Shown: positions 4,884 to 41,956, counted from the first letter of the stretch. The stretch: DNA of 41,956 bases from Lentisphaerota bacterium (GCA_012799905.1 JAAZKI010000587.1:1-41956), one strand, 5' to 3'. Numbers and translations: made by a program. Notes: generated from the letters alone by a model not told the origin.

Positions 4884-4961
4884 ACAGGAACAGCCAGACA
4901 GAACAGCGTAATGGGGCACTGATTCATACTCGGAAATCCGACGAGCTGCGGTCTCAGGAAA

Positions 4962-5010
4962 GGGGCGAGGGGCGAGGGGCGAGGGGCGAGGGGCGAGGGG
5001 CGAGGGGCGA
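4962..5010. repeat. GGGGCGA heptamer tandem array, seven units
   Basis: Seven perfect GGGGCGA units fill 49 bp, directly followed by dispersed element copy B, the same arrangement as at the left end of the window. It has strong G-quadruplex potential on the plus strand. Confidence 0.95.
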
Positions 5011-5152
5011 GAGTGAGTTTGGACTACACTGGCAGTCACGTCCACGCCGCCCATATCTCTCTGCGCTGCAAGCACTTAGTAATGCTTAGCCTCAGACTTC
5101 ATCCTGGGAAAGGCATACCCCAAAACTGGCGCCTTGTAGAGAGGCGCTACAA
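5011..5152 (+). repeat. hairpin-rich dispersed element, copy B
   Basis: This is a second, more diverged copy of the element at 64-212. The left ~50 bp (GAGTGAGTTTGGACT...) and the right end (ACCCCAAAACTGGCGCC) are well conserved, while the central palindromes are partly decayed. It forms most of the 517-bp gap between the kinase and lipoprotein genes. Confidence 0.7.
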
Positions 5153-9922: not shown

Positions 9923-10101
9923 ATCTACGTAGGCGGATCACTCATGCGATCTGCGCCAGACAGAGGCGCAATTTCTAATCCAGACATTCATTTCCTTGCC
10001 AGAGGCCACTCGAAAAGCCCTGGCTAATATTTTTCCACAACCACGGTCTTCCCTGACGCATGGTCTTGCATACGTTGCAACCCGCCATAGACAAAACACA
10101 C

Positions 10102-11583
10102 ATGCGCCATATTCAAATCACCCAACAGGACAACGTCGCCATCGCTTTGCAGGACCTCGCTGCTGGCGAAACCGTCGCTGGCCTCAAACTGCGTGACGCC
10201 ATCCCCCGCGGCCACAAATTCGCCATCAGCGCCATTCCGATCGGCGGCCTGGTCATCAAATACGGCCTGCCCATTGGCAGCGCCAGCGCGGCCATTGCGC
10301 CAGGCGAACACGTCCATTCCCACAATCTCAAAACCAGACTGAGCGGCATTGTCGAATATCACTACGACGGCCCGCCCGCGCCCGTCACCCTGCCGACCTT
10401 CCCTGAAGCAACCTTTCAAGGCTATCGGCGCGCCGACGGCCGGATCGGCATCCGCAATCATCTGTTCATTGTGCCGACAGTCGGCTGCATCAACAAGCTG
10501 GCCGAGGGCCTGGCTGCGGCTTTCAACCGACAGAAGCCAGCGAGTTCAGCCATCGACCGCGCCATTGCCCTGACTCATCCCTACGGCTGCTCACAACTCG
10601 GGGACGACCATGAGACAACCCGCGCCATTCTCGCCGCCCATGTCCGTCACCCCAACGCTGCTGGTGTTCTGGTGCTGGGGCTGGGCTGCGAAAATAATAC
10701 TATCGAATCATTCCGCGAATTAGTCGGAGCAGGCGTTCCCCAGCGCCGGCGCTTCCTGGTCTCGCAGGAGGTAGACGACGACTTCGCGGTCGGCTTACAG
10801 GCGCTGCATGACTTGGCCGCCGCCGCTGCCAATGACCGCCGCGAACCGATTTCCGCTTCAGAACTGATCATCGGCCTCAAATGCGGCGGCTCCGATGGCC
10901 TGAGCGGCATCACCGCCAATCCCCTGCTCGGGCGCTTTTCCGACCGTCTCGTCGCCTTGGGCGGCACGACCCTCCTTGGCGAAGTCCCGGAAATGTTCGG
11001 CGCTGAGACGCTTTTGATGCAACGCTGCGAGACCGCAGAAGTCTTCCAAAAATGCGTGGCCATGATCAACGACTTCAAGAATTACTTCACCCGACATGGC
11101 CAGGTCATCTACGAAAATCCCTCGCCTGGCAATAAGGCCGGCGGCATCTCCACCCTGGAGGACAAATCCCTTGGCTGCACCCAGAAAGGCGGCAGCACTA
11201 ACGTCGTTGACGTGCTCAGCGCCGGCGAAACGCCGAGCCGTCGCGGTCTCAACCTGCTTTCCGGCCCAGGCAACGACATGGTCGCCACCACCCTGCTCTC
11301 AGCCGCTGGCGCTCACCTGGTCTTGTTCACCACCGGCCGCGGCACTCCCTTTGGCGGCGTTGTCCCGACCCTTAAAATCGCTACCAACACCGCCCTGGCT
11401 GAACGCAAGCCGCATTGGATTGACTTTGATGCCGGCCGTATCTTAGAAGAACACGCTGACCGCAACGCTATTGACCAGGCCTTTTTCCAACTCGTCCTTG
11501 ACACCGCCTCGGGCCAGGTCGCCCGCAACGAAATCCACGGCCATGAAGAAATCGCTATCTTCAAGGATGGCGTCACCCTATAA
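10102..11583 (+). CDS. uxaA: UxaA-family altronate dehydratase
   Basis: The 493-residue protein matches the full length of D-altronate dehydratase, which converts altronate to 2-keto-3-deoxygluconate in galacturonate breakdown. An N-terminal SAF domain (about 1-80, with DLAAGETVAG and GEHVHSHN) is followed by the large UxaA domain beginning GYRRADGRIGIRNHL. The family blocks HPYGCSQLGDDHE, GLGCENN, LKCGGSDGLSGITANP and GNKAGGISTLEDKSLGC supply the likely Fe/Mn ligands. The ATG at 10102 starts the SAF domain; the open frame begins 42 nt earlier, and the ribosome site is weak. No UxaB or UxaC is in the window. A galactarate or other sugar-acid dehydratase of the same family is the alternative. 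Confidence 0.9.
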   Translation: MRHIQITQQDNVAIALQDLAAGETVAGLKLRDAIPRGHKFAISAIPIGGLVIKYGLPIGSASAAIAPGEHVHSHNLKTRLSGIVEYHYDGPPAPVTLPTFPEATFQGYRRADGRIGIRNHLFIVPTVGCINKLAEGLAAAFNRQKPASSAIDRAIALTHPYGCSQLGDDHETTRAILAAHVRHPNAAGVLVLGLGCENNTIESFRELVGAGVPQRRRFLVSQEVDDDFAVGLQALHDLAAAAANDRREPISASELIIGLKCGGSDGLSGITANPLLGRFSDRLVALGGTTLLGEVPEMFGAETLLMQRCETAEVFQKCVAMINDFKNYFTRHGQVIYENPSPGNKAGGISTLEDKSLGCTQKGGSTNVVDVLSAGETPSRRGLNLLSGPGNDMVATTLLSAAGAHLVLFTTGRGTPFGGVVPTLKIATNTALAERKPHWIDFDAGRILEEHADRNAIDQAFFQLVLDTASGQVARNEIHGHEEIAIFKDGVTL

Positions 11584-11640
11584 TATAAACCAACAACTAA
11601 CAACTAACCCGTCCTTTGAGTAAATCACCCCTTACCCACT

Positions 11641-11723
11641 GTCCACTAACGTCCACTAACCCTTCTCGTCACCTTTAAACCAACAACAACCTACCCGTCC
11701 CCTCGCCCCTCGCCCCTCGCCCC
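11641..11723. repeat. GTCCAC and heptamer (CCCC/TCG) arrays before nagB
   Basis: Two GTCCACTAAC units at 11641-11660 are followed, after 39 bp, by four CCCC tracts spaced by TCG (11699-11723). The latter is the GGGGCGA heptamer on the opposite strand. The array ends about 45 bp before the nagB start. Confidence 0.85.
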
Positions 11724-11767
11724 TAAAAAAAACCTCAACCCCAACCTTTCCACCACAGGAGCAGCAC

Positions 11768-12517
11768 ATGCACGTCAAAATCTTCTCTGACAAAGTCAGC
11801 CTGGGCAAAGCCGCAGCCGCGACCGGTGCTGGCTACATCCGCCGCGCTCTGGCCGCCAAAGGCAATGCCAACCTGGTCGTCGCCACGGCCGCCAGTCAAT
11901 TCGAATTGCAGGACGCCCTGATCGCCGAACCGGACATTGACTGGTCCAAAATCACCATCTTCCACTTGGATGAGTACATCGGCCTGCCAGCCGACCATCC
12001 GGCCGGCTTCCGCTACAACCTGCGCAAACGCCTGATCGACCGCCTGCCCACCCCGCCAGCCAATTTCTTCCCGGTTGACGGCAATGCCCCAGACCTGAAA
12101 AAAGTCATTGCCGACCTGGGAAAAGCCCTTGAGAAGCATCCGCTGGACGTCGCTTTCATCGGCATTGGCGAAAACGGCCACATTGCCTTCAACGACCCGC
12201 CGGCTGACTTCGACGCCGAAGACCCGTTCCTGGTCATCACCCTGGACGAGGTATGCCGCCGCCAGCAACTCGGCGAAGGCTGGTTCCCCACCCTCGACGA
12301 CGTGCCCAAGCGCGCCCTCACCATGAGCGTTCCGCAGATCATGAGCAGCGCTGCCATCATCAACGTGGTGCCGGACCTGCGCAAGGCCGAGGCAGTCAAA
12401 AACGCCCTCGAAGGCCCGCTGACCAACATGTGCCCTGCCTCCATCCTGATGACCCATCCTGATTGCCATACTTTCCTGGATGATGCATCCGCCTCCCTGC
12501 TCAAACGCAAACCGTAA
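11768..12517 (+). CDS. nagB: glucosamine-6-phosphate deaminase-like protein (NagB family)
   Basis: The 249-residue sugar-phosphate isomerase/deaminase has LDEYIGLP (Asp of the active site) and GIGENGHIAFNDPP, the signature loop with the catalytic His. Relative to the E. coli enzyme the loop GNDGHIAFNEP reads GENGHIAFNDP, and the GTPL substrate loop reads ATAASQF. These changes are common in PVC and Bacteroidetes homologues (recalled), but they mean the exact amino-sugar phosphate is uncertain. AGGAG lies just before the ATG. A sugar ABC importer follows after 107 nt, so it may process the imported sugar. Confidence 0.85.
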   Translation: MHVKIFSDKVSLGKAAAATGAGYIRRALAAKGNANLVVATAASQFELQDALIAEPDIDWSKITIFHLDEYIGLPADHPAGFRYNLRKRLIDRLPTPPANFFPVDGNAPDLKKVIADLGKALEKHPLDVAFIGIGENGHIAFNDPPADFDAEDPFLVITLDEVCRRQQLGEGWFPTLDDVPKRALTMSVPQIMSSAAIINVVPDLRKAEAVKNALEGPLTNMCPASILMTHPDCHTFLDDASASLLKRKP

Positions 12518-12524
12518 ACCCGGC

Positions 12525-12604
12525 CGCCAGGCTAATCCTGGCGCGCCATTCTACGCTGCTGGACGGTCTCGCGCCGAGCTGAAAATGCCTGGCCGAGACC
12601 GTCC
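12525..12604 (+). promoter_or_regulatory. two stable hairpins between nagB and the ABC genes
   Basis: Hairpin 1: CGCCAGG (12525-12531) / CCTGGCG (12537-12543). Hairpin 2: GGACGGTCTCG (12561-12571) / CGAGACCGTCC (12594-12604), extended by GCC/GGC. Neither has a T-run, so an mRNA-processing, stability or attenuation role is likelier than simple termination. Confidence 0.55.
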
Positions 12605-12624
12605 ACGTTACTACCTTGCCATCC

Positions 12625-14133
12625 ATGTTGAGCGTCTCTGACACTATCATCGCCACCGAGGGCATCGGCAAGACTTATGGCACTGTTCCGGTTCTGCGTG
12701 AGATTGACCTGCGCCTGCGTCCAGGCGCCATTCTCGGGCTAATCGGCGAGAACGGCGCTGGCAAGTCCACCCTCATCAAATGCCTCAATGGCATGGTAGC
12801 GCCGACGACCGGGACGGTTTATTTTGACGGCAAGCCCTGCCGCTCGTTGACCGTAGCAAACGCCATTGCGCGGGGCATCGTCACCGTGCCGCAGGAATTC
12901 AACCTGGTCAATGACCTCACTGTCGCTGAGAACATCTTCCTGGGCCAGGAACTAACCTCGGGATTCGGACTGCTTCGCCGTCAAGAGATGGCGGACCGAA
13001 CCCAAGCCATACTGAACCGGCTCAACGTCACCCTTGAACCGACGCAGCGTGTCGGCGCGCTCAGCGTCGCGGAAAAGCAATGCGTCGAAATCGCCAAGGC
13101 ATTGACCACTCCCTGCCGTGTTCTAATCATGGACGAGCCGACCACCGTGCTCAATCAACGCGAGGTCAAGACGCTTTTCCAGCTTTTGCGTCAGTTCAGC
13201 CAACAAGGCACTGCTATCATCTTCGTCTCCCACAAACTGCACGAAGTCCGCGCCATCAGCACGGAGGTCGCTATCCTCCGCGATGGCGAACTGGTCGCCC
13301 AAGCGCCGACTTCTGAACTCACCGAGGCCGATATGGCCCGACGCATGGTAGGGCGGGAATTGAACCAGCTGTTCCCAGAGCTGCCGGCAGCGCCAGGAGC
13401 CGAGTCAGCGCCAGTCCTGGAAGTCGAGAACGTGTCGGTTCCCGGCTTGTTGCATGACATCTCCTTTACGCTCCGACAGGGCGAATTGCTCGGCTTGGCC
13501 GGACTAGTCGGCGCTGGACGCACGGAGCTGGCTGAGACGCTCTACGGACTCCACCGCCCCTCAAGCGGAACTATACGCCTGTTCGGCCGCCGCGTCCGAT
13601 TTCATTCACCGGCCGACGCTGTCCAGGCCGGCATTGCTTATCTATCCGAAGACCGCCAAGGCGCTGGCATCCTGACCGATTTCGCCCTCACCGCCAACAT
13701 CACGCTCACCTCCCTGGCGCGCTACTGCCATCCGTTTATCTCACGCCGCGAAGAACAGCACCGAGCCGAGCATTTTATCAGTCGGCTCGCCATCAAAACC
13801 ACCTCCACCCAAACACCGCTGCGTCACCTCAGCGGCGGCAATCAGCAAAAAACCGCCATCGCCAAAGGCCTTGACCACGACCCCAAAATCTTCCTCTTTG
13901 ATGAGCCGACGCGAGGCATTGACATCAAGGCCAAGACTGACGTCTATCGGATCATCCATGCTCTGCTCGGCCAGGGCTTGTCCGGCATTTTTATTTCGTC
14001 TGACTTGGAGGAAGTCATTGGCCTGTGCAGGCGCGTCGCGGTCATGCGCAGCGGCCGCATCGCCGGCTTTTTGGAAGACGACCAGATCACGGAAGAGGAA
14101 ATCATGTACCTGGCCACTGGCGTGAAAGCATAG
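12625..14133 (+). CDS. sugar ABC transporter ATP-binding protein, RbsA/MglA type
   Basis: The 502-residue protein has two fused ATPase domains, as in ribose- and galactose-type importers. Domain 1 (about 5-240): Walker A GENGAGKST, a degenerate signature LSVAEKQCVEIAKAL, Walker B VLIMDEPTTVL. Domain 2 (about 260-500): altered Walker A GLVGAGRTE, which is typical of this family, signature LSGGNQQKTAIAKGL, Walker B IFLFDEPTRGID. An ATG at 12625 is preferred to the TTG at 12616. No clear ribosome site is seen. The permease gene follows after 4 nt. Confidence 0.92.
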   Translation: MLSVSDTIIATEGIGKTYGTVPVLREIDLRLRPGAILGLIGENGAGKSTLIKCLNGMVAPTTGTVYFDGKPCRSLTVANAIARGIVTVPQEFNLVNDLTVAENIFLGQELTSGFGLLRRQEMADRTQAILNRLNVTLEPTQRVGALSVAEKQCVEIAKALTTPCRVLIMDEPTTVLNQREVKTLFQLLRQFSQQGTAIIFVSHKLHEVRAISTEVAILRDGELVAQAPTSELTEADMARRMVGRELNQLFPELPAAPGAESAPVLEVENVSVPGLLHDISFTLRQGELLGLAGLVGAGRTELAETLYGLHRPSSGTIRLFGRRVRFHSPADAVQAGIAYLSEDRQGAGILTDFALTANITLTSLARYCHPFISRREEQHRAEHFISRLAIKTTSTQTPLRHLSGGNQQKTAIAKGLDHDPKIFLFDEPTRGIDIKAKTDVYRIIHALLGQGLSGIFISSDLEEVIGLCRRVAVMRSGRIAGFLEDDQITEEEIMYLATGVKA

Positions 14134-14137
14134 TCCC

Positions 14138-15121
14138 ATGGCCACGACCCCATCCAGCCAAAACCAATTTATCCATCGTTTGCGTCGCCTGGCTGCTTCG
14201 CAGGGACCCTATCTGGCCTTGGCGCTTCTCCTGCTGGTCTGCGCTGCTTCCAGCCCGGCCTTTCGGCGACCGCAGAACCTTCTTAACATCACCCGCCAAG
14301 TCTCTTACAGCGGAATCATCGCTCTTGGCATGACCGCTGTCATCATCGGCGGCGGCATCGACCTCTCGGTCGGCGCACTGCTGGCTTTTGCCGGCACGGT
14401 CGGCATCATGGCGATGAATACCTGTGACAATCCTACCGCTGGCCTGACCGTTGCCATCGTCGTTATGCTGCTGACCGGCGCGGCCGGGGGCGCTATCAAT
14501 GGCGCACTCGTCACCATCGGCCGGCTGCCGCCGTTCATCGCCACCCTGGGAACGCTGTCAATCTTCCGCTCCCTCAGCCTGTACTTAGCCGGCGCCGGCC
14601 TCACCACGGCTCGCCATGACGTCTTTATGCAAGTCGGCGGCGCTGTCATCGGCGGCGTCCCCTTGCCCGCCTGGATTCTGCTGCTGCTCACCGCCCTTGG
14701 CGCCGTGCTGATGACCTGCACCAAGCTCGGTCGGCACATCTGCGCGGTCGGCTCCAACCAACGCGTTGCCCGCTATGCCGCCATCAACACCGGAAAAGTC
14801 ACCTTGATCACATACGTCCTCATCGGGTTATTGGCTGGCGTCAGCGCCTTTCTGCTCGGCGGTCGCCTCGGCTCGATCAGCTCCAGCACGGCTGGCAACG
14901 CTTACGAGCTGGACGCCATTGCCGCCGTCATCATCGGCGGCGCCTCCATGGCCGGCGGCCGCGGTTCCATGACCGGCACCCTGGCCGGAATCCTCATCCT
15001 CGGCATCATCGCCAATATCCTGGACATGTGGGGCGTTTCCGTGTATCTGCAGGGCGCTGTCAAAGGCGTCGTCATCATCATCGCTGTCCTGTTGCAACGG
15101 CCGCAAAACCAACAAGCCTGA
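14138..15121 (+). CDS. sugar ABC transporter permease, RbsC type
   Basis: This 327-residue polytopic inner-membrane protein has about 8-10 hydrophobic segments. Family blocks include ALGMTAVIIGGGIDLSVGAL (the binding-protein-dependent permease loop), GRLPPFIATLGTLSIFRSL, and RVARYAAINTGKVTLITYVL, followed by IIGGASMAGGRGSMTGTLAG. It starts 4 nt after the ATPase stop and should be translationally coupled to it. It forms the channel of the importer with its neighbours. Confidence 0.93.
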   Translation: MATTPSSQNQFIHRLRRLAASQGPYLALALLLLVCAASSPAFRRPQNLLNITRQVSYSGIIALGMTAVIIGGGIDLSVGALLAFAGTVGIMAMNTCDNPTAGLTVAIVVMLLTGAAGGAINGALVTIGRLPPFIATLGTLSIFRSLSLYLAGAGLTTARHDVFMQVGGAVIGGVPLPAWILLLLTALGAVLMTCTKLGRHICAVGSNQRVARYAAINTGKVTLITYVLIGLLAGVSAFLLGGRLGSISSSTAGNAYELDAIAAVIIGGASMAGGRGSMTGTLAGILILGIIANILDMWGVSVYLQGAVKGVVIIIAVLLQRPQNQQA

Positions 15122-15183
15122 GCATCGTATTCATCCATTCCCGGTTTGTCTTCCCAATTCACCATTCTATCAGGATCCACACT

Positions 15184-16158
15184 ATGACCACATCCATCCG
15201 CCGCCTGGGCCGACTGGCCCTTGTCCTCATCCTCTTCGCAGGCGCTGCCGCTTGCAAAAAGCAACCGGCCGCTGACCAGGCCACCGTGACCATCGGCATC
15301 TCTATCCCTGGCATGGACCACGGGTGGACGGGGGGCGTCGTCTGGTGGGCTGAACAAGCCAAGAAAAAGTGGAAGGCTGAAGACCAGAACATCCGCGTCA
15401 TCCTGTCTACAGCCAAGGATTCCAGCGAACAGGTTGACAAAGTCGAAAACCTCTTAGTCCAAGGCATTGACGCTTTGGTCATCTTGCCCCACGAACCCGG
15501 CCCGCTGACCAGAGTCTGTGAACAAGCCTCCAGCCAGGGCGTCTACCTCGTGGTGGTTGACCGCGGCTTGGACAAGCCGATTCACGACTTCTTCGTGGCT
15601 GGCGACAATCCCGGCTTTGGCCGAGCCTGCGGCGAAGCCTTGGCCAAGCAACTCGGCGGCAAAGGCAAAATCGTGATCATGGAAGGCATCCCCTGCCCGG
15701 TCAACAGCGACCGCGTCAACGCCTTCATGGAAGTGATCAAAAAACACCCCGGCATTGAGGTGCTTGACTCCCAGGCGGCCTATTGGGACCCTGAAAAAGG
15801 CCTCCGCCTGATGGAGAACTTCCTGCAGAAATACCCGTCCATTGACGCTGTTTGGACTGGTGACGACGATGTCCTGCTCGGCGCTTTAAAGGCGTATGCG
15901 GAATCCGGCCGCAAAGACATCAAGTACTTCATCGGCGGCGCGGGCAGCAAGGCCATTGTCAAGATGATTCTGGAGCGTGATCCGGCCATCCCCTTCAATG
16001 TCACCTATCCGCCGGCCATGATCTCCACCGCCGTCGACTTTGCGGTCAAGGGACTGCGCGGTGAAATCCCGGAGGGACAGAAAACCCACATCATGCCGGC
16101 CGAGGTCATCACGCCGGAAAACGCCAAGGATTTCTATTTCCCTGACTCCATCTATTGA
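15184..16158 (+). CDS. sugar-binding lipoprotein of ABC importer (RbsB-like)
   Basis: The 324-residue protein has a signal peptide (about 1-25, RRLGRLALVLILFAGAAAC) ending in Cys, so it is likely a lipid-anchored periplasmic binding protein of the periplasmic-binding 4 family. Visible family features: GISIPGMDHGWTGGVVW at the first strand, an NLLVQGIDALVILP core, and YPSIDAVWTGDDDVLLGAL. The lipobox is imperfect (AAAC). AGGAT lies before the ATG at 15184. It is the third gene of the importer, 62 nt after the permease. The ligand is unknown; a monosaccharide or amino sugar fits the neighbourhood. Confidence 0.9.
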   Translation: MTTSIRRLGRLALVLILFAGAAACKKQPAADQATVTIGISIPGMDHGWTGGVVWWAEQAKKKWKAEDQNIRVILSTAKDSSEQVDKVENLLVQGIDALVILPHEPGPLTRVCEQASSQGVYLVVVDRGLDKPIHDFFVAGDNPGFGRACGEALAKQLGGKGKIVIMEGIPCPVNSDRVNAFMEVIKKHPGIEVLDSQAAYWDPEKGLRLMENFLQKYPSIDAVWTGDDDVLLGALKAYAESGRKDIKYFIGGAGSKAIVKMILERDPAIPFNVTYPPAMISTAVDFAVKGLRGEIPEGQKTHIMPAEVITPENAKDFYFPDSIY

Positions 16159-25499: not shown

Positions 25500-26225
25500 T
25501 CACTTCACCACGCCGACCTTGATATTGAGGTCTTCTCGGCGTTCGAGGCGGTCAACGGCGCCGTCCTTAATCCACAGAATCCGGTCTGAGGTCGCCAGCA
25601 TTTTGTGGTCATGCGTCGCGGTCACCACGGTCACTCCCAGTCGCCTTGACAAGTCAGCGATCAGGTTGATGATTTCCTCGCCGGTCACCAGGTCGAGGTT
25701 CGCAGTCGGCTCATCCGCCAGGATAATTGCCGGCTCATTGGCCAGCGCCCGCGCAATGGCCACCCGTTGTTGCTGGCCGCCGGACATTTCGTCCGGTCGA
25801 TGCGTCAAGCGATGACCCAGGCCGACCATTTCAAGCACTTCAATGGCGCGCTTGCGCGCCTTTTCGGGTTCGACTCCACTGAACAACAGCGGCAGAATGA
25901 CATTGGAGATGGCGTCATAGGCGGGCAGCAGGTTGTAGGCCTGGAAGATGTAGCCGATGTGATTGCCGCGGAAATGCGCCAGCTGCCGCGGCGTCAGCTT
26001 AGTCAAGTCGACGCCAGCGACTTCGACCAGGCCGGAGGTCGGCCGGTCCAAGGCGCCAATCATGTTGAACAAGGTGCTTTTGCCGGAGCCGGACGGGCCC
26101 ATGATCGACATATATTCGCCCCGGTAAATCTCCAGATTGATGTCACGCAAGGCGTGCACAACCGCTTTGCCGAGGTTGAACTCCTTGTTCACTTTTTGAA
26201 CTCTGATCAGGACTTCCTGACTCAT
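25500..26225 (-). CDS. LolD/MacB-type ABC transporter ATP-binding protein (2)
   Basis: The 241-residue ATPase has Walker A GPSGSGKSTLFN, signature MSGGQQQRVAIARAL, Walker B IILADEPTANLD and the H-loop TATHDH. It belongs to the class that powers FtsX-like permeases to move lipoproteins or peptides or do mechanical work, rather than importers. The ATG at 26225 has GGGGA 8 nt upstream; an alternative ATG is at 26246. It is the last gene of the minus-strand transporter cluster, 60 nt after the OPT gene, and is the likely partner of the large FtsX fusion upstream. Confidence 0.92.
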   Translation of the reverse strand: MSQEVLIRVQKVNKEFNLGKAVVHALRDINLEIYRGEYMSIMGPSGSGKSTLFNMIGALDRPTSGLVEVAGVDLTKLTPRQLAHFRGNHIGYIFQAYNLLPAYDAISNVILPLLFSGVEPEKARKRAIEVLEMVGLGHRLTHRPDEMSGGQQQRVAIARALANEPAIILADEPTANLDLVTGEEIINLIADLSRRLGVTVVTATHDHKMLATSDRILWIKDGAVDRLERREDLNIKVGVVK

Positions 26226-26285
26226 GTTTGCAGTCCCCTTATCCATGTCTGCCAGCACCGGTCTACCCGGGAACTGTCCCTGAAC

Positions 26286-28375: not shown

Positions 28376-31300
28376 TCACGCCTGCTGCTTCGTATCTTCC
28401 CCGTTCCCATTCATAATCTGCAAGGCCTCCAGGGTCTGCTGGCGATAATGCTCCATGGTCTCTGGCGAAATGGAGCGCCAGATGAGGAATTGCTGCCGGA
28501 GGTCGTCCAGGAAGACCTTATTTAGGCGCTGCCAATCCTTTGGCTGTCCGGACAGACGATGCAGCACCACCCGAACCTCGTCAATGCCTTCGATTTCGCT
28601 TGGCGTGCTGCGCAGCGCGAAGGTCTGGCTCACCCCCAGGTCAAACGGCGCCAAAGCCAAGCGCGCATCCAGGCCAAGGTCGCCGTTGGGTTCCTGTACC
28701 AGCTTCACGTCGCTCGTCATGAACCGCCCCAGGCCAGTGTCGGTATGATTGCCAAAATGCTCTTTCAGGAAAGACACCACTCCGGTAATGTCGTATTGCG
28801 ACACTGTAAACGGGAACACTAGGTCCATCAGGTCGCCGACTGGCGGCGGCGGGCGCCATGTCCGCATCAAACCCGGGTTAGCTGATTTCGAGGCTTTGAT
28901 CGCCGGGTAGACCGACGAGAGCAGCACCGTCACCATGACAATCAGAATCGTCGCAATTGTATTCGTTGACGACATATTCATCTCCGGCACTCGCACCAGG
29001 CCGTATTCCGCAGCCACCCCCAGCACCTTCAAGGTTCCTTGCGCCAGCAGATATCCGCCCAGGCCGCCGATAAGGGCGTAGACCATGGACTCGGCAAAAA
29101 ACAGCGTTGCCACGTGGCGGGGCGCCAGGCCAAGGGCGCTGAAGGTGTAGATTTCCTTTTGCCGGTCCGCCACTGATCCGAGCATGGTGCCGAAGATCAC
29201 CAGGCCGCCCAGGACTATCGGGAAAAACAGATCGCGGGCGCCGCTTGCCTTCAACACTGTTCCCAGGAGGTGCCGGTAGACGCCGTTGTCGCCGGTGGCC
29301 GGGATTGGGAACGGCAGCATCCGAGCCAGGTTCTCCGCTGTCTCCACTGCGGCCGTGCTGTCAGCCGTATACACGGTCAGCGCATACAGGGCGCCGCCGA
29401 TCGCCTTGGCTGTGTCCGCCGTCACCACTGCCACCTGGTCAACCGGCAGACTCGCCCAATTGCGCTGCGACATCGACTCCATTGCCTCGTCATCCTCCTC
29501 CAGCGCTGCCGCTGTCGGCTGCGAGGACGAGGTTATCTCCGTGAAGTCAGCCGGCAGAATGCTGCTCATATCCATGTCCTTGGCTGCCGAGACCTGCACG
29601 GCGTCCAGCAGTGGACCTACCCGGAGCCGCCGACCGCGCAGCAGCACCTCGTCCCCAGCGACGACGCCCAGCGCCTCGGCTACGGCCTCTGTGATCAGCA
29701 CCGTATCTTCCTTCAAGCCGCTGAAATGCTCCTGGAGATCAGGCCGATTGGCGATTTCTTCCTGCTCAATGCCGAGGATGCCCCGCACTGTCACCGGCCG
29801 GGACGCATCCGTACGGCTCATCAACAGCCCGGGGTTGTCTTGCGTGGACGGCGACACCCACAGGCGTCGGCAGACGGTCAAATCCGGCCATCGGCCGCGG
29901 ATGATGTCCTGCAAGTCCTCGCTGAGCGGATTCCAGTTGACATTATGCACAAAGGCGCCGCAGTAGTTGGGATTCGGCGCTGCAAAGATCGTGACGATGC
30001 CGGACTGGGTGCCAAAAGACGCGAAGCACAGGATGGTAAAGGTGAGGAGGATAATCGTGATGGCGGTCAAAGCGGTGCGCGTGGGTCGGCGGCGCATGGT
30101 CGAGATGCCCATCTGCATTGCTGCCATGAAGGTGTTCACATTTGACACGTCGTTGACGTGCACTGTCGTGGTCATGCCCTGAATCGCTTTGAGCTCATAC
30201 TCGAATTTCCGCATGATGATGAAAATCACCATGACCGACATCACCACGATGGCGAAGCCTAAAAAGATGATGATCGGCGTGTTGGCGATGGCAAAGGCCG
30301 GATGTGACAGGTACAAGACGAGGAAGGTGACCGCAAAAAAGAAAACAAACCAGTAGATTTGCTTGTAGATGGTGGTGGCGCCGATCAAAACCCGCTCCAA
30401 GGCGAACGCAAACGGCACTGACAATCCCAACAGAATCAGGACTGCGAACACCAGATCGTCCAGCATGGCCCTGACTTTCTGGTACACCGGCCGGGAAACC
30501 CAGAACGACGTGGTCGCCAGCGCTTCCCGCCGCATTGGCGACGTGCCTGGCCGAGCCGCTTCCAGGAGGATATCCTCGGAACGGCCGTGCATCTCGGCCA
30601 AGGAGGAATCCAGGATGCCCTTGGCCCGCAGGATTTCCATCCGGGACTCGTTCAGCCGCCAGAGGTCGGCCGCCGAGCGCGCCGCTGCATTCAGGGTTAG
30701 GGGTTCGTCGCTCATCGGGAAGCCTTCGCCAATCTGCTCTTCGCCAGGCTCGAACGTCTCCAGGAACTCAGGCCCATTGTTCAGGCCGACCATCTGTCTT
30801 ATGCTGAACAACTTAACGCCCTTCTCCCGCTCCTCGGCATACCAGCACACCACGCCGTCAACCGTCTCAGTGAACGACTTAGCGCGGTCAAGGTCAGAGT
30901 TAGCCCGAGCCGACAACACCTTCACATTATCGCCTGGCAGCCTATGCGTCCGCTGCTGCGATGGCAGCACTATGCAGCCGGAATTGGCCCGGAAGGTGTT
31001 GAGGCGCCAGCGGATCGTCGTGTATGAGTTGTTTCCGGAGACTTCTGCTGGCAGGCCCTGGGGATCGAAGATTACGGCAAAGCCGCCGCGGGCGCCCCAG
31101 GCGTTGGTGACCGGCCCCAGGGCGTAGCTGCCGTTCCGGTTTGTTCGCAGCACCTGGAAGTTATCAAAGGCGGGCGGTTTGCTTTCCTCATAGGCGAGGG
31201 ACATGTTCCGGGTCAAGCGGAATTGGATGATAGCGCCAGACATGGGAGTATTGGGGATTGAGGTTCCGGGCAGCATGCCCATGACCATGGGGCCCTTGAC

Positions 31301-33247
31301 GCTGTTGTCACTGTCAAAACTTGGCAGCACGTATTCCTTGCTGGTGACGATGCTGCGGCGCAAGGACAGCCCTGGATGGCTGCCGACCGTTTCCGCAGCC
31401 AATTCAGGAGACATGGCGCCAATCGGGAACAGGAATGCAGCGATATCCTCGACCTGGCTAAAAAGGCGCGACAGGTTCAAGCGGTCCAGGGTGTCGTGCG
31501 GCGTGCCCTCGTACTGGGCGGATTCCTGCACCGTGCCCAGGCACAAGTTGTAAATGCCAAACAGACCGGCCGGCTCGCCGCTGTGGATGAGCGCCTGAGA
31601 AGCCCACAGCACCCGCGTCTGCGACAAGGTCTGGTCTGCCGACTCCGGCAGAAACAGGCTGTCCAGGCCGGCCTCGGTGCGCTTTTGGTGCGTGCGCAGG
31701 AAGACCGCCTGAATTTTGCCATACAGCCCGGGGTTGTCCTGATGCGAATGCATGGCCGACTCCCCGCCAATGACCAATCCCCAGCGCTCACTGGTATCAC
31801 CCAGCAGCAGCGACGTATGAAGGGCGATCCAACGATCCCCCAACAGCCGCACAATCGCGGCGTCTGCGTCCAGCGCCGCCCGTTCCTGCTCAAGTTCACG
31901 GGCTCGGGCATCAATATCATCCTGGACCTGGGCGACGATCAGCTCCAGGTTAGCCTGCACTTCCGGGCTAAGGGTGATCGGCTCGCCGCCAGACTGACGT
32001 TTCTGCCGACCAATCACCCGTTGCAGCTCGTTCCAGGACTGCTTGACCGGAAGAACCTCCGCCTTGGCAGCGGCGATTTCCTCGACCCGCTCCCGCAAAC
32101 TCTCGGGCAGCTGCGTGCCATACGTCTTGCGGTAGTTCAAAAGTTCGTCATTTAAGCGGTATTCCTTATCCTTGTAGATATGAGCCTGCTGCTGCGCCTT
32201 GTCCGTCAAACGGTCGAGAAAGCGCCGCCGGGCGTCCTTGGAACGCGCAGTCAGCGGCGCCGGACTGGTCAGAATCTTCCTCATTTCGCTGATAAAGGTC
32301 ATTTCATTGGCATATGATTCCTCCCGCTTCGCCAACGTGACGTCAGGCTTATCCGCTTCCAGGGCGCGGTAGAAATAACTGCTGCCGAGATGTCCGCGCG
32401 CTTGCTGGTCAAAAAAGGCAATCAGGGTATGGCGGCGAGGCCGATTGCGGCTGACTTCGCCAGCCAGATGGAGCAGCGCCGCGGCATTGGCTGCGCTGCG
32501 CGCGCCAGGCGACAGCCAGGGCACCTCGCCATAACTGTCGAGGTTGGCCGCCAAAATCACCACTTCCTCCTTGCTCTGCGCAAACACAGGGTCGGTGCCT
32601 TGAAAGAAAGCGAAAAGGTTGCGACCGACGGCTGGCGCCCAGACGACGCTGCTGTGCAAAGTCGCGGTCGCGCCGGCCGGAATATCCGCTGCCGGGCCGT
32701 CATAGTAGAAGCGCAGGAGATTGACATTGCTCATGACATAATGCGAATGGCGTGCGTCTGCTTCGGATGGCCGCGTAAAGATGACGGCCTTGGCGCCCAG
32801 GCGCAAAGCCCTCAGCCAGCCCTGTCCGCAATTGTAGTCCAGGACAACCAGCGCCCCTTCCACTGACTCGCGTTCATAGTCAGCAGCGGCGCCCTGGCCC
32901 ATGTGGACGATCTTGCCGGTCACCCCGGCCTCGGGAGTCACCGGCGGGATGATGCCGTTCGGCCGCATCGGATGCAGCGCCAGCGTCCGACCATCCGTCA
33001 AAACCAGGTCAGCGCGCTGTTTCTTGATCTGAACCGTTGCAAACGGCTGTTCAATGATCTCATCTGGGGACAAAGCCTGGAGCCGCGCCAGGACATAGTC
33101 GGCGGCGCGATTATACTCTGGCGTGCCGCTCAGCCGGTGCGGTTCGGCGCTCAGCCGCTCACAGTCCGAGATAAACTCCGGGGGCGGCGCTGCCGACCAA
33201 GCCGCCGCCGTCAACCACATCGCTAAGATAAATGTCCAACGCTTCAT
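28376..33247 (-). CDS. M28-peptidase-like ectodomain fused to FtsX/MacB permease
   Basis: The 1,623-residue protein has a signal-like N-terminus (1-20), then an M28 aminopeptidase-like domain with an inserted PA-like region (about 25-330). The M28 metal-site motifs are altered: HxD reads NLD (235-237), the bridging Asp is Ser251 (GARSAAN), and the Glu pair is QQ (281-282). A coiled-coil stretch (about 340-490) and a beta-rich region follow. Membrane helices start near 930; an FtsX-type helix lies near 1055-1075, a second extracytoplasmic part at about 1080-1330, and the final FtsX helices at about 1340-1460, then a ~160-residue soluble tail. I infer a substrate-binding, catalytically dead ectodomain coupled to an ABC permease. 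The start at 33247 has GGAAA upstream. Confidence 0.85.
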   Translation of the reverse strand: MKRWTFILAMWLTAAAWSAAPPPEFISDCERLSAEPHRLSGTPEYNRAADYVLARLQALSPDEIIEQPFATVQIKKQRADLVLTDGRTLALHPMRPNGIIPPVTPEAGVTGKIVHMGQGAAADYERESVEGALVVLDYNCGQGWLRALRLGAKAVIFTRPSEADARHSHYVMSNVNLLRFYYDGPAADIPAGATATLHSSVVWAPAVGRNLFAFFQGTDPVFAQSKEEVVILAANLDSYGEVPWLSPGARSAANAAALLHLAGEVSRNRPRRHTLIAFFDQQARGHLGSSYFYRALEADKPDVTLAKREESYANEMTFISEMRKILTSPAPLTARSKDARRRFLDRLTDKAQQQAHIYKDKEYRLNDELLNYRKTYGTQLPESLRERVEEIAAAKAEVLPVKQSWNELQRVIGRQKRQSGGEPITLSPEVQANLELIVAQVQDDIDARARELEQERAALDADAAIVRLLGDRWIALHTSLLLGDTSERWGLVIGGESAMHSHQDNPGLYGKIQAVFLRTHQKRTEAGLDSLFLPESADQTLSQTRVLWASQALIHSGEPAGLFGIYNLCLGTVQESAQYEGTPHDTLDRLNLSRLFSQVEDIAAFLFPIGAMSPELAAETVGSHPGLSLRRSIVTSKEYVLPSFDSDNSVKGPMVMGMLPGTSIPNTPMSGAIIQFRLTRNMSLAYEESKPPAFDNFQVLRTNRNGSYALGPVTNAWGARGGFAVIFDPQGLPAEVSGNNSYTTIRWRLNTFRANSGCIVLPSQQRTHRLPGDNVKVLSARANSDLDRAKSFTETVDGVVCWYAEEREKGVKLFSIRQMVGLNNGPEFLETFEPGEEQIGEGFPMSDEPLTLNAAARSAADLWRLNESRMEILRAKGILDSSLAEMHGRSEDILLEAARPGTSPMRREALATTSFWVSRPVYQKVRAMLDDLVFAVLILLGLSVPFAFALERVLIGATTIYKQIYWFVFFFAVTFLVLYLSHPAFAIANTPIIIFLGFAIVVMSVMVIFIIMRKFEYELKAIQGMTTTVHVNDVSNVNTFMAAMQMGISTMRRRPTRTALTAITIILLTFTILCFASFGTQSGIVTIFAAPNPNYCGAFVHNVNWNPLSEDLQDIIRGRWPDLTVCRRLWVSPSTQDNPGLLMSRTDASRPVTVRGILGIEQEEIANRPDLQEHFSGLKEDTVLITEAVAEALGVVAGDEVLLRGRRLRVGPLLDAVQVSAAKDMDMSSILPADFTEITSSSQPTAAALEEDDEAMESMSQRNWASLPVDQVAVVTADTAKAIGGALYALTVYTADSTAAVETAENLARMLPFPIPATGDNGVYRHLLGTVLKASGARDLFFPIVLGGLVIFGTMLGSVADRQKEIYTFSALGLAPRHVATLFFAESMVYALIGGLGGYLLAQGTLKVLGVAAEYGLVRVPEMNMSSTNTIATILIVMVTVLLSSVYPAIKASKSANPGLMRTWRPPPPVGDLMDLVFPFTVSQYDITGVVSFLKEHFGNHTDTGLGRFMTSDVKLVQEPNGDLGLDARLALAPFDLGVSQTFALRSTPSEIEGIDEVRVVLHRLSGQPKDWQRLNKVFLDDLRQQFLIWRSISPETMEHYRQQTLEALQIMNGNGEDTKQQA

Positions 33248-33416
33248 TCGCGTTCCGTTTCCTGTTGTCTTGGTGACAGGCGCTGTTCTGACCACAACTC
33301 ATTGACGCTGTCAGGCCGTTCTCAGCCGCTATCTCCGTTCCAAATTACTTAAAATGACTATATTCCTGCCAGGCGCCCGCCCCCGAATCTTCCAGCGACG
33401 GGCGTCTGGAATGTCC

Positions 33417-34202
33417 TCATTCAATGGTGCCGACTTCGATATGCACCTCACTGCGGTCTGCCATGCGGTCAATGCGTCCATCCCGAATCCACATCAGCCG
33501 GTCGCAGATATTCATCATGCGGTGGTCATGCGTGGCGCAGATAACCGTCACGCCCTTTTCCTTGTTCAAGCGTTGCAGCAGTTCCAGAATCTCCTGTCCG
33601 GTGTTCAGGTCCAGGTTAGCGGTCGGCTCGTCGCAAAGCAGCACGCTCGGGTTATTGGCCAAGGAGCGTGCAATGGCCACGCGTTGCTGCTGGCCGCCCG
33701 ACATCTCAATCGGCCGGTGATGCCAGCGTTCCTTCAGACCGACTATTTCCAGGATGCCCATGCCGCGCTCCCGGGCCTGGTCAGGCATCACTCCGCCAAA
33801 CGCCATGGGCGTGGTCACATTCTCCAAGGCAGTCATATATTTAATCAAATTGTAGCTCTGGAAAATATAGCCGATTTTATGGCAGCGCAGATACGCCAGC
33901 TCTTCGGCCGTCAACTGAGCCACATCGACTTCGTCAATGAAGACGCGCCCTACCGACGGGCTGTCCAATGCGCCGATCATGTTGAAAAACGTCGATTTAC
34001 CGGAGCCGGACGGCCCCATCACGGCGATGAACTCACCCTGGAAAATCTCAATATCAACCCCTCGCAGGGCCTCGGTCAGAACGCCTTTCATCATGTACGT
34101 CTTTTTCAAGCCCACCGTCCTGATGATGACGCGGCGGTCGCCGTTGCCGTTTGCGACGGCCGAATTCTGCCCGTTGGTTTGTTCTGCTGTCACTGCCGCC
34201 AT
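33417..34202 (-). CDS. LolD/MacB-type ABC transporter ATP-binding protein (1)
   Basis: The 261-residue ATPase has a low-complexity N-terminus of about 22 residues (AEQTNGQNSAVANGNGDRR), then Walker A GPSGSGKSTFFN, signature MSGGQQQRVAIARSL, Walker B VLLCDEPTANLD and the H-loop CATHDH. It is clearly paralogous to the product of 25500-26225. It lies 51 nt downstream of the FtsX permease gene and is its likely motor. The ribosome site (AGAG) is weak; translation may depend on the upstream gene. Confidence 0.92.
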   Translation of the reverse strand: MAAVTAEQTNGQNSAVANGNGDRRVIIRTVGLKKTYMMKGVLTEALRGVDIEIFQGEFIAVMGPSGSGKSTFFNMIGALDSPSVGRVFIDEVDVAQLTAEELAYLRCHKIGYIFQSYNLIKYMTALENVTTPMAFGGVMPDQARERGMGILEIVGLKERWHHRPIEMSGGQQQRVAIARSLANNPSVLLCDEPTANLDLNTGQEILELLQRLNKEKGVTVICATHDHRMMNICDRLMWIRDGRIDRMADRSEVHIEVGTIE

Positions 34203-37994: not shown

Positions 37995-38069
37995 AAATAA
38001 TGAAACTCTCTGTGAAAGATGGGGATGACAAAGTATGCTTTTGTGGCACTAATTTATTCGCAAAGAAAT

Positions 38070-38098
38070 ATCCTAATCGTCATCAAGCAGATTTGCAA
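38070..38098 (-). promoter_or_regulatory. putative promoter of OPT-like gene copy 2
   Basis: On the minus strand TTGCAA (38098-38093) and TAGGAT (38075-38070) are exactly 17 nt apart. The leader would be about 70 nt. It suggests that the downstream five or six genes can be expressed apart from the first three. Confidence 0.55.
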
Positions 38099-38128
38099 GC
38101 TTAGGCCGAAATATTTAGCAAACTTTTA

Positions 38129-38146
38129 ATCAATCACTTGATTGAT
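38129..38146 (-). promoter_or_regulatory. perfect 18-bp inverted repeat, candidate operator
   Basis: ATCAATCA-CT-TGATTGAT lies 30 nt upstream of the putative -35 box at 38093-38098, an activator-type position. No regulator gene is adjacent. Confidence 0.55.
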
Positions 38147-38266
38147 ATTCATTTTATTCTTTCAAGCGGCGGAGCCAAGCCCTCAGCAGGGGCAAGGCGC
38201 TCCAGTGGACAGAACTCGGCACTCTCGACATTCTCACTGCTCTGGCCAATTCACCGCTTAATGTCC

Positions 38267-38683
38267 TCACTTGGCGTCGTTTTCGGCTTGATTCTCCTGA
38301 CTGTCTGGCGCCATCATGACGGCCAGGATGCCGCGTTGAATCAACTTGCGCAGATAATCGACTACCGCCGCCCGCGCCTCGTGAAAGCTCAAATCATACG
38401 TATCCTTGAACAAATCAATGACGTCTTCAACCGTTCGCTGGCCATCGCACCAGCGCCACAGCCGAGTGCCGATGGCGTCCAAGTCGATTTCCCGCTCGGG
38501 AGAATAGGGCACAAACCAACTTATCGGTGGTACCATATATTTCGGTTTTTGTGTTTTGACAACCACAGTCACGGTGTTTTCGCCTTTTTCGCGCACAGCT
38601 GCCGCAATATTGCGGACCGGATAAGCTGCCAACATCGCCCGCCAGTCCCCGCTGCCAAGGCCGGCTGAGTCACCACGCTTCAT
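38267..38683 (-). CDS. PqqD-like protein
   Basis: The 138-residue protein's C-terminal half (about 72-130) is a PqqD-type small winged-helix domain: IDLDAIGTRLWRWCDGQRTV, then EDVIDLFKDTYDLSFHEA and VVDYLRKLIQRGIL. PqqD domains bind leader peptides in modified-peptide (RiPP) pathways, but no radical-SAM enzyme or precursor gene is seen here, so another peptide- or protein-binding role is likely. The N-terminal ~70 residues are unrecognised. Its ATG overlaps the stop of the upstream gene (ATGA), and GGAGGT lies just upstream of the ATG. Two further in-frame Met codons upstream are ignored. Confidence 0.85.
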   Translation of the reverse strand: MKRGDSAGLGSGDWRAMLAAYPVRNIAAAVREKGENTVTVVVKTQKPKYMVPPISWFVPYSPEREIDLDAIGTRLWRWCDGQRTVEDVIDLFKDTYDLSFHEARAAVVDYLRKLIQRGILAVMMAPDSQENQAENDAK

Positions 38684-39603
38684 AGCAGCACCTCCAATCC
38701 GGAGCAGCAGGACAAGGCAACGTCCAAGCCAGCAGCCTGCTGCCCGCGCCGTTGGTGCATCCAACGCGACACGCAGTACAGACGGCGGTCGCCCGGGCAA
38801 ATCCAGGCGCAGGCCTCATACTGCCGTCGGCCATACAGCCAATCCTTCAGCACGGAGCGTTCTCGACGCGCAACCAGGCTGCAAACGTCATGCCCAGACT
38901 GCCCTGCATGGGTCACGCTCTCCTGCGCATACCCGGCGGGAATCGTCTGCACCAGCCATTCCGACACCGACGTTGTCAGCCATTCCGACACCATGCCCCG
39001 GCGCGCAAAGGTCGCCGCGCCGCGATTATTGCGGAGAGCGAAAACAGCCTCAGCCTGCGCCGGCTCAACGGCGCAGGAGGCGAAGACGGTTGTTGCTGGG
39101 ACGTGCCAAGTCATGCCGAACGCCTGCCAACGCTGGCGACCATCCTCTGACCTGGTCAAAACCCGCAGCATATCCAGCACCCGCCCTTCGAACGACGGTT
39201 TCGACTTCTCACCCGGAGGCCACAGGAAAACCGCCTCTAAAATCTGGCGACTCTCAGCCGAATACATCCCGTAACGGCAGATATCGCGCTCGCCATCCTG
39301 ACCGGACGTCCCCAACCAGGGGGAATGACCGAGCGGCCGAACGTCGCTCAGGCCGTCCTCCGACAACTTGGCGCGGTAATCGCTGACCATCCGTTCCATA
39401 TCTGGAGGCGCTTGCATGCGCTTCCAGTCCAGTTCAAAACGATACTGGTAGCGGTCGCCGAACACGCAGCGTCCGACTTCCGGATTGCGGGTGAATTGCA
39501 GCATTTCCCAGTCTGGGGGCAGCGTCACCGACAGCCCTTGCCAGACCCATGTCTGCCAGGCTGGGGAAATCTGTCCTGAACGTGGCAAGCGCGGCGGCTT
39601 CAT
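38680..39603 (-). CDS. uncharacterised soluble protein between OPT-like and PqqD genes
   Basis: This is a 307-residue protein I do not recognise, with no signal peptide or membrane helix. The N-half has TWVWQGLSVTLPPDWEM and YQYRFELDWKRM. The C-half, WQAFGMTWHVPATTVFASC, has a similar cadence, so two related lobes are possible (by eye). Trp- and Cys-rich, ending ALSCCSGLEVLL. The start MKPPRLP at 39603 is fixed by the 4-bp ATGA overlap with the OPT-like gene; its own stop overlaps the PqqD start in the same way. Strict coupling implies fixed proportions and a shared job with those two proteins. Confidence 0.85.
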   Translation of the reverse strand: MKPPRLPRSGQISPAWQTWVWQGLSVTLPPDWEMLQFTRNPEVGRCVFGDRYQYRFELDWKRMQAPPDMERMVSDYRAKLSEDGLSDVRPLGHSPWLGTSGQDGERDICRYGMYSAESRQILEAVFLWPPGEKSKPSFEGRVLDMLRVLTRSEDGRQRWQAFGMTWHVPATTVFASCAVEPAQAEAVFALRNNRGAATFARRGMVSEWLTTSVSEWLVQTIPAGYAQESVTHAGQSGHDVCSLVARRERSVLKDWLYGRRQYEACAWICPGDRRLYCVSRWMHQRRGQQAAGLDVALSCCSGLEVLL

Positions 39604-41669
39604 CGTGGGAACCATCTGTAAGGCAATGGCTTCTGTCCTGTATTGAGGTAATACAGGAAGCCGACGATCATAAAGATGACGGCGGCGATGATTTCACCGG
39701 TAATGATGCCGATCATCAGCGGCCGCAGCTTCCGCGCCATGCGAATGCCGCCGAAACGCACAGCCGCCTTTTTCAACATCCAGCCGATGAAGAAAGAATG
39801 GCAGGTCATCGCCATCGGATAAGTGGCCCACAGCAAAAACATGACAGGGTGCAACGGCCATTTGGGAACCCGCAGACGCAGAAAACTGAAGAACAGCACG
39901 ACGATGATGCCAAAGCTAAAAGCGCCCACGAACATATCTTTAGGCGCGATCTGCGACAGGCGCTTCCACCAGGGCAGCGCCGCCACCTCCTCCAGGCAGC
40001 CGATTGCCTTCAGCTGCAAGACTTCCGGCAAGGCCGAGCGGAAGCTCATCGTGGGAATCCGCTGGTAATGCCAGTTCATGTTAGTCGGCGCCCCGAATTC
40101 ATAGATGGCCACGAGGATGACTGCCACCGCGATCACGACTGCGACCGTGTACATGATCATGCTGGTCACTCCAGCCTTGGCCGGCTTCACCCCGGCTCGG
40201 TCGCACAACCGCAGGCCATTCGTCAAAAACGGCATGAATGCCTGGCATTGGTCAATGCACAGCATGACGCAGACCAGGCCGCAGATCACCTGCGCTTCCG
40301 GCGAAAACGTGTAGGTGCCCAGGCCAGCCAGCAACAGCCCGAAAATCGTCCACCGAGGCTGGATAAAGAACAGCCCGGTCTCAGCGCTGATCCTGGACAC
40401 GACCACAAAGGACAGCAGAGTCAAAAAGACCGTGATCAAGGCAAACGGCAGTTCCAGCCCCAGGCGCCAGATCAGGTATGTCATCAACACGAAGGCCACC
40501 ATCAGCAGACGGGTCGCCCAGATGTTGGCGCGCTCCGGCTCGTCCGCAGCCAGTGGTCGAAACGCCTTGACCAGCAAATACCGATAGTAGTTCCGGCCCG
40601 TGTATAACAGCATAAAGAACATAGCGATGTACGACCCGGCTCGCTGCCAGCCCTGCCAGCCGCCAATCCAGTCGGTGGACAAATTCATGCCAACGGTCAC
40701 CATCGGCAACGCGGTCAGAACCCAGCATAGCTGCGACAGCCCCAAGGTCAACGATATCTCCGTGCTCAGGAAAAACGCAAAAGCGACGACCAGCGGAAAC
40801 ACTGACAGCGCCAGCAGGTTGGAGCCGTATTGCACCCGGAACAGCTGCGGCCAGACCTGGGCGAACGGCGTCAGACTCCAGTTCAGTCGAATGGGAATAT
40901 AGTAATCCGGAAACCACACGCAAAGGCCATTGTTGACCCGGATGACAACCAAAAGGATAAATCCGATCCAGAACAGCCGGCTCCGGAACACCGCCGGCCA
41001 TAGGCGACCGGGCGATTGCTCGATGAGAGTGGCGTTGAAATCGGCAATCGGAAAACTGAGGAATTCATGGGCTGACCACTGCTTGTAGGTAATCAACGCC
41101 AAACAGACGCTGGCCAAGGCGCTGAGCAGCACAAGCGGCATCCAAGTTTTTAGCGGCGGCCACCAGGCTCGCCAGGGCACTCGGGTAATCTTGGTCCACA
41201 TCCAAGCGTGCCAGGGCCGCTCATCCACCACGCCTTTTGGCGCTCCCATGATGTAGCCGCCGACCGTCTGATCGTAATTCTCCTCGGTGACATCGACCAG
41301 GGCTTCCTTCGGCGCATAGCTGAGAATGTCATTCTGCTGCCAGCCGGGCGTCACGCGGTTCCAGTGGAACGGCATTATCATCGTATGCGTGAACTGCTCC
41401 AACAAGCCGCGCCCGGGAATGCTGCAAGACGCGCTCCACAGCAGCACAATCAGCGCCAATTCACCAGTCCGGAAAGCATAGCGCGGCCGCCATAAGCCAA
41501 TCAACGGATTGACCAGCAAGACCACCAACGCCATCAAGCCGATGACGATAATCGGCAATAACTGGCCGTTGGTGAAACTCTCCAACCCTAAAACGCAGTC
41601 GTTGATATAACCGCAGGAGGCAATGAAAATAGCCCCCAGAAAACCGATAATGAGACTGCGCACTGACAT
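39600..41669 (-). CDS. OPT-like polytopic membrane protein (DUF6785/DUF6784 type), copy 1
   Basis: This 689-residue protein with about 14 membrane helices is the first gene of the minus-strand cluster. Blocks: GELALIVLLWSASCSIPGRG, HEFLSFPIADFNATLIE, RISAETGLFFIQPRW, and near the C-terminus KWPLHPVMFLLWATYPMAM and ARKLRPLMIGIITGEI. It shares its plan with the gene at 35907-37994, but the two are well diverged. AAGGT lies 8 nt before the ATG at 41669, and a near-consensus -10 box lies just upstream. Transported substrate is unknown; the OPT superfamily suggests peptides or metal complexes. Confidence 0.83.
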   Translation of the reverse strand: MSVRSLIIGFLGAIFIASCGYINDCVLGLESFTNGQLLPIIVIGLMALVVLLVNPLIGLWRPRYAFRTGELALIVLLWSASCSIPGRGLLEQFTHTMIMPFHWNRVTPGWQQNDILSYAPKEALVDVTEENYDQTVGGYIMGAPKGVVDERPWHAWMWTKITRVPWRAWWPPLKTWMPLVLLSALASVCLALITYKQWSAHEFLSFPIADFNATLIEQSPGRLWPAVFRSRLFWIGFILLVVIRVNNGLCVWFPDYYIPIRLNWSLTPFAQVWPQLFRVQYGSNLLALSVFPLVVAFAFFLSTEISLTLGLSQLCWVLTALPMVTVGMNLSTDWIGGWQGWQRAGSYIAMFFMLLYTGRNYYRYLLVKAFRPLAADEPERANIWATRLLMVAFVLMTYLIWRLGLELPFALITVFLTLLSFVVVSRISAETGLFFIQPRWTIFGLLLAGLGTYTFSPEAQVICGLVCVMLCIDQCQAFMPFLTNGLRLCDRAGVKPAKAGVTSMIMYTVAVVIAVAVILVAIYEFGAPTNMNWHYQRIPTMSFRSALPEVLQLKAIGCLEEVAALPWWKRLSQIAPKDMFVGAFSFGIIVVLFFSFLRLRVPKWPLHPVMFLLWATYPMAMTCHSFFIGWMLKKAAVRFGGIRMARKLRPLMIGIITGEIIAAVIFMIVGFLYYLNTGQKPLPYRWFPR

Positions 41670-41715: not shown

Positions 41716-41891
41716 CAAGCCGTATGCCGGGACTGCCTCACACCCGAGAATGTGGCGGAATGCCTGACCACAGCCGCAATGCCGTGGAATTTCAGTAAAA
41801 TACAGGGAAATATACAAAAAACAAGAGCCGCGATGCCCTTTGCCGCAAAAAAGCGAATAATTTCTGCAAGCTGATACGAAGGGCTTTGTTT

Positions 41892-41956
41892 AGGGGCGAG
41901 GGGCGAGATTAGGGGCGAGGGGCGAGATTAGGGGCGAGGGGCGAGATTAGGGGCGA
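41892..41956. repeat. 19-bp tandem repeat with GGGGCGA core at window end
   Basis: The unit AGGGGCGAGGGGCGAGATT is repeated 3.4 times and runs off the window end. It is two GGGGCGA heptamers plus GATT, like the junction at the left end (37-42). Confidence 0.97.

Follow-up and report, generated by a model that had tools for sequence, protein, structure and literature searches.

The three coupled genes at 38267-41669 of a 41,956-nucleotide stretch of DNA from a Lentisphaerota bacterium (GCA_012799905.1, JAAZKI010000587.1:1-41956; the window) probably head a multicomponent transport machine of the inner membrane. Judging from the genes that follow them and from their relatives, this machine would combine an ABC/FtsX motor, membrane carriers of the OPT and DUF6785 families, and a cytosolic adaptor made of a 307-residue protein and a PqqD-domain protein. 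The parts are of known kinds and the assembly is new. The operon has apparently never been described, and nothing relevant to DUF6785 or to this gene combination was found in the open-access literature.

Gene fusion here links the PqqD domain to a new protein family, and the domain is associated with transporters, not with tailoring enzymes; genome mining would misread such a set as a RiPP cluster. The system gives DUF6785/DUF6784 and the new soluble family their first functional context, and it includes what appears to be an ABC permease carrying a dead peptidase domain. If the proposed role is correct, it would be an example of the RRE fold working outside peptide maturation, in a system compact enough for expression and testing.

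A nine-gene operon and its coupled head

The sequence-only reading described a trio of genes, which turn out to be the first of a nine-gene ABC/FtsX/OPT operon that continues with six further genes on the same strand to position 25500 (Table 1). Because the operon comprises nine genes instead of three, the partner of the PqqD protein may be any of eight proteins.

Table 1. Genes of the nine-gene run (41669-25500), in gene order, followed by the two overlapping junctions
Feature	Coordinates	Strand	Basis
DUF6785/DUF6784 polytopic membrane protein, 689 aa, about 12 TM segments	39600..41669	minus	PF20581 3.8e-68, PF20580 5.9e-22; hydropathy
307-aa soluble protein, new family u307, 0 TM segments	38680..39603	minus	no Pfam or NCBIfam match
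PqqD-domain protein, 138 aa, conserved N-terminal extension of about 55 residues	38267..38683	minus	PF05402 3.1e-12, above curated cut-off; alignment
Second DUF6785/DUF6784 protein, 695 aa	35907..37994	minus	PF20581 1.2e-63
FtsX-type ABC permease, 491 aa	34254..35729	minus	PF02687 1.7e-13
LolD/MacB-type ABC ATPase 1	33417..34202	minus	PF00005 2.8e-30; TIGR02211 216 bits, below cut-off 307.75
1639-aa permease: M28/nicastrin-like N-terminal domain, FtsX permease, conserved tail	28376..33295	minus	profile and structure-database homology
OPT-family transporter, 672 aa	26286..28304	minus	PF03169 27.6 bits, cut-off 25.8
LolD/MacB-type ABC ATPase 2	25500..26258	minus	PF00005 2.7e-35; TIGR02211 232 bits, below cut-off 307.75
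ATGA overlap, DUF6785/307-aa	39600..39603	minus	sequence, tcat on the plus strand
ATGA overlap, 307-aa/PqqD	38680..38683	minus	sequence, tcat on the plus strand; ATGA/GTGA here in many homologues

Both of the successive ATGA overlaps noted earlier are present. Where exactly the 307-aa protein starts is uncertain because a second in-frame ATG lies 12 nt upstream (39615), which would give a 311-aa product and a 16-nt overlap. The tight coupling of the three genes is supported, and the 3' end of the 307-aa gene forms ATGA or GTGA in 21 of 40 homologous loci, two of which (L087 and L095) are 307-aa/PqqD fusions whose ATGA joins the gene that follows. Coupling at this end of the gene is beyond chance.

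Between the PqqD gene and the second DUF6785 gene there are only about 270 nt in the window (37995-38266). A sister species, in which the 307-aa protein is 93% identical, has about 7 kb more at this point (L048:4516-11660), encoding a LacI-type regulator, a glycosidase-like protein, a protein with a prepilin motif, and a 647-aa protein without a Pfam match.

The soluble pair

The 307-aa and PqqD genes sit side by side in nearly all relatives, and in two families they are fused as one uninterrupted frame with a linker (L087, a 503-aa ORF, and L095), with the PqqD domain of the fusion ORFs confirmed by Pfam. A frameshift error might mimic one fusion; two in different families are less easily explained in this way. 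Fusion in two families indicates that the two proteins very likely act together. Neither protein contains a hydrophobic segment. Given the adjacency of the genes, their ATGA/GTGA coupling, the fusions, and the absence of hydrophobic segments, we infer that the pair forms a cytosolic two-domain unit.

The 138-aa protein is a PqqD-domain protein by Pfam (PF05402, 47.1 bits against a cut-off of 23.4), and its matches to more specialized models are weaker. It stays below the cut-off of the PQQ-pathway equivalog TIGR03859 (29.2 bits against 46), 18-19 of 21 family members match PqqD subfamily models weakly, and a structure-database search matched PqqD and lasso B1 structures weakly. These matches are what it shares with the PqqD/RRE domains of RiPP pathways. 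It differs from them in its fusion to the 307-aa family, its conserved N-terminal extension, and the absence of a linked tailoring enzyme or precursor.

A profile check of the 307-residue protein, as proposed in the sequence-only reading, assigned no Pfam, NCBIfam, or PDB family. AlphaFold models calculated from the window sequences and two close relatives were too poor (mean pLDDT of 41 for the 307-aa protein and 54 for PqqD), and Foldseek found no match with the low-confidence PqqD model. Two candidate folds for the 307-aa protein, a PsbP-like fold (a single member, E 0.034) and a tandem-repeat fold (a weak match between its N- and C-terminal halves), offered too little to claim.

Proposed carriers and motor, and the M28-like domain

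The 672-aa protein scores above the cut-off of PF03169, the family of the OPT/YSL transporters of oligopeptides and metal chelates, and is 73-89% identical within the order, with one member at 52%. OPT proteins are generally stand-alone symporters. In contrast, the OPT gene here lies inside an ABC operon, and the DUF6785 proteins found with it fall outside PF03169. The 689-aa protein at the head of the operon was originally called OPT-like. It belongs to the DUF6785 family and does not match PF03169, and a profile comparison with the operon's own OPT protein (hhalign) gave a weak collinear match over 176 columns (E 0.001 for a single comparison, probability 21%). OPT-like is therefore a weakly supported description of DUF6785.

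The FtsX permease domains and the LolD/MacB-type ATPases are features shared with the LolCDE, MacB, and ADOP type VII ABC systems. Unlike those systems, the operon has two ATPases and adds an M28-like domain, OPT and DUF6785 proteins, PqqD, and the 307-aa protein. All of the curated cut-offs are missed: the ATPases fall short of LolD (216 and 232 bits against 307.75) and of the darobactin exporter DarD (207 and 195 bits, cut-off 375), and the scores for LolCE (52.8 against 362) and MacB (218 against 966) are also short of their thresholds. Membership in the ECF transporters is likewise not indicated, with ECF ATPase models far below cut-off and no EcfT or S family among the Pfam matches. By analogy only, the system resembles the group II ECF transporters, in which a shared motor serves many S components, in that each genome has few motor loci but numerous dispersed DUF6785 genes. 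It differs in its permeases and in lacking any ECF family above cut-off, and sharing of the motor is here an inferred property.

The 1639-aa permease starts with what reads by eye as a signal peptide. Residues ~49-377 are homologous to the M28 aminopeptidase 2ek8 (E 4.2e-10) and to nicastrin (2e-6), a relationship at the level of the fold, and the Pfam M28 model PF04389 does not match the protein. The M28 metal ligands and catalytic glutamate have been lost in nearly all homologues: HxD is mostly NxD, GA(D)DN is replaced by GARSAAN, and AEE by DNQ or DQQ. With these residues gone, the domain is most likely a noncatalytic binding domain. Nicastrin itself is an inactive relative of M28. The present domain is homologous to nicastrin and the M28 aminopeptidases (2ek8, 3iib, 5a63) over the same residues, and it differs from them in the replacement of most metal and catalytic positions and in being fused to an ABC permease. 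The C-terminal part comprises the FtsX permease followed by a strongly conserved tail, for which kinship with the 307-aa or PqqD proteins was considered and none was detected.

There are hints of two kinds of substrate. A peptide is hinted at by the peptide-binding relatives of the OPT, M28-like, and PqqD domains. The neighbors of 20 dispersed DUF6785 genes are mixed and include four ROK and three sialidase-like (BNR) genes, and in one genome (G001) a LacI regulator and a glycosidase-like gene adjoin the second DUF6785 gene, which hints at a sugar. The sugar substrate is a mere hint because the ROK neighbors are probably one orthologous pair.

Conservation and co-occurrence in Verrucomicrobiota

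Among named relatives, the MAGs Lentisphaerae bacterium ADurb.Bin082 (93% identity in the 307-aa protein) and Verrucomicrobia bacterium RA.bin70 (79%) come closest. The block running from the 307-aa gene through PqqD, FtsX, ATPase, M28/FtsX, and OPT to the second ATPase is kept in at least 12 relatives of the same family or order, and it is also found in other orders and classes. It is preserved gene for gene in L049-L059 and L062 and in part in L048, L060, L061, and L066.

The position of DUF6785 is more variable. It lies directly upstream of the 307-aa gene within the genus (L048, L066), and the order DUF6785-307aa-PqqD is found again in distant families (L059, L060, L061, L081, L088, L089, L095). 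In two loci (L082, L087) it instead follows the last ATPase. In 24 genomes a DUF6785 gene lies on the same strand as the 307-aa gene and no more than 2.5 kb from it; in genomes whose 307-aa gene lies elsewhere, DUF6785 adjoins the motor genes. In paralogous loci the order differs but the set is retained: DUF6785, OPT, M28/FtsX, FtsX, two ATPases, and usually PqqD. Retention of the set while the order is reshuffled speaks for a single machine and against a frozen neighborhood. The genome under study has a second, divergent copy on another contig (L099, G000:C334), with a long DUF6785 protein, OPT, M28/FtsX, PqqD, and an ATPase; the 307-aa gene is not adjacent to it.

Co-occurrence was examined in 387 Verrucomicrobiota genomes, using the identical set for each component. 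The 307-aa family is found in 61 of them, the 1639-aa permease in 71, and DUF6785 in 72, and the conserved set occurs in about one-sixth of the sample. The 307-aa protein and the 1639-aa permease occur together in 60 of the 61 genomes with the former, where 11 would be expected (Fisher p 9e-58, ignoring shared ancestry). DUF6785 and the permease coincide in 67 genomes against an expectation of 13 (p 8e-64, again ignoring shared ancestry). DUF6785 is also absent from three genomes without the system (G004, G011, G053), and in two genomes with a single DUF6785 gene (G344, G372) that copy sits in the operon. Losses within one family, where G004 and G011 lack everything, indicate that the components come and go together.

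The association is looser for some parts. At a few divergent motor copies (L125, L126, L133, L137, L144) no PqqD was found, and it is thus not indispensable to every version of the system. In L080, L083-L086, and L091-L094 the 307-aa gene, whether accompanied by PqqD or not, stands apart from the motor genes, which lie elsewhere in the genome. A search for relatives in viral contigs and plasmids found none.

The proposed machine and its alternatives

In the machine that we favor, the two LolD/MacB-type ATPases and two FtsX-type permeases would form the ABC motor. The M28/nicastrin-like domain on one permease, presumably periplasmic, would capture or sense substrate outside the inner membrane, and the OPT protein with one or more DUF6785 proteins would be the polytopic carrier parts that supply the path. 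The 307-aa/PqqD unit would dock on a carrier or permease and select the substrate or gate the complex, instead of passing a precursor peptide to a tailoring enzyme. Since genomes have one or two motor loci and from one to about 15 dispersed DUF6785 copies, the DUF6785 proteins may be exchangeable carriers that share one motor. A possible but tentative extension of this proposal is a new class of machine, with many such carriers served by a small number of ABC/FtsX/OPT motor loci and with PqqD, fused or coupled to the 307-aa protein, as docking or gating adaptor.

A rather doubtful alternative is an envelope exporter of the LolCDE/MacB sort, with the motor extracting or exporting a lipoprotein, lipid, or surface polymer, the OPT/DUF6785, 307-aa, and PqqD proteins as auxiliaries, and no role in nutrient uptake. 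The best-scoring models are LolD for the ATPases and LolC/E, MacB, and ADOP for the permeases, and the strong conservation of the OPT and 1639-aa proteins would suit a housekeeping envelope role. Yet the LolD, LolCE, and MacB cut-offs are all missed, the system is missing from most genomes of the phylum, and the many dispersed DUF6785 genes fit carriers for many substrates better than a single export path. It is very improbable that the PqqD domain regulates the operon by binding DNA or RNA as a winged helix. RRE domains are indeed similar to the winged-helix domains that bind DNA, and a regulatory role has been discussed for some PqqD-like proteins that are not part of RiPP loci (PMC7470986), but here PqqD remains in the transport operon despite shuffled gene orders, is translationally coupled and fused to the 307-aa protein, and has the profile scores of PqqD and not of a regulator family. 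Chance adjacency of three unrelated genes has next to no probability: ATGA overlaps are frequent in compact bacterial genomes, but the junction, order, and gene set kept across the phylum, along with the fusions and co-occurrence, refute it.

A PqqD-like protein next to a transporter is usually the sign of a RiPP locus (PMC7470986). A further alternative is a RiPP system in which PqqD would carry a leader peptide, the tailoring enzyme and precursor would be encoded elsewhere, and the ABC/OPT proteins would export the product. The resemblance of the ATPases to DarD fits such a system, as does the presence of radical-SAM genes somewhere in all ten genomes checked. Among the matches listed for those ten genomes, however, none is near the system; the shortest distances are 55 kb in G008, a complete genome, and about 32 kb in G344. 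A motif check of ORFs found no CxxxCxxC radical-SAM protein in loci with motor genes. The only real radical-SAM gene among the motif-match loci (L085:8268-9869, B12-binding, with DUF4080) belongs to a locus that lacks the motor genes, where it is about 3 kb away from a 307-aa gene standing alone. The observation in the sequence-only reading that PqqD lacks a modifying enzyme thus extends to the system loci, as judged by radical SAM, the one type of tailoring enzyme tested, and the RiPP locus that it named as evidence to the contrary was not seen with the trio there. The linked small-peptide genes that it suggested looking for did not materialize: when 612 small ORFs around 307aa-PqqD were compared, in a comparison that could miss a fast-evolving core peptide, the largest cluster spanned three loci and overlapped a neighboring gene. 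The fusion partner of PqqD is the 307-aa protein and not an enzyme, and no PqqD subfamily model of RiPP pathways is matched over cut-off. With neither a radical-SAM gene in the system loci nor a conserved small-peptide gene, an ordinary RiPP locus is unlikely, and we consider the RiPP system as a whole quite improbable. The set looks like an exception to the rule.

Other features of the window

A sugar-uptake cluster can be read at 10060-16158, with altronate-dehydratase-like and glucosamine-6-phosphate-isomerase-like genes and a ribose-type sugar ABC importer. The contig ends at 41890-41956 in a tandem repeat of about 19 bases (ttaggggcgaggggcgaga), possibly an assembly break point, and a related-looking repeat is readable around 4950-5020.
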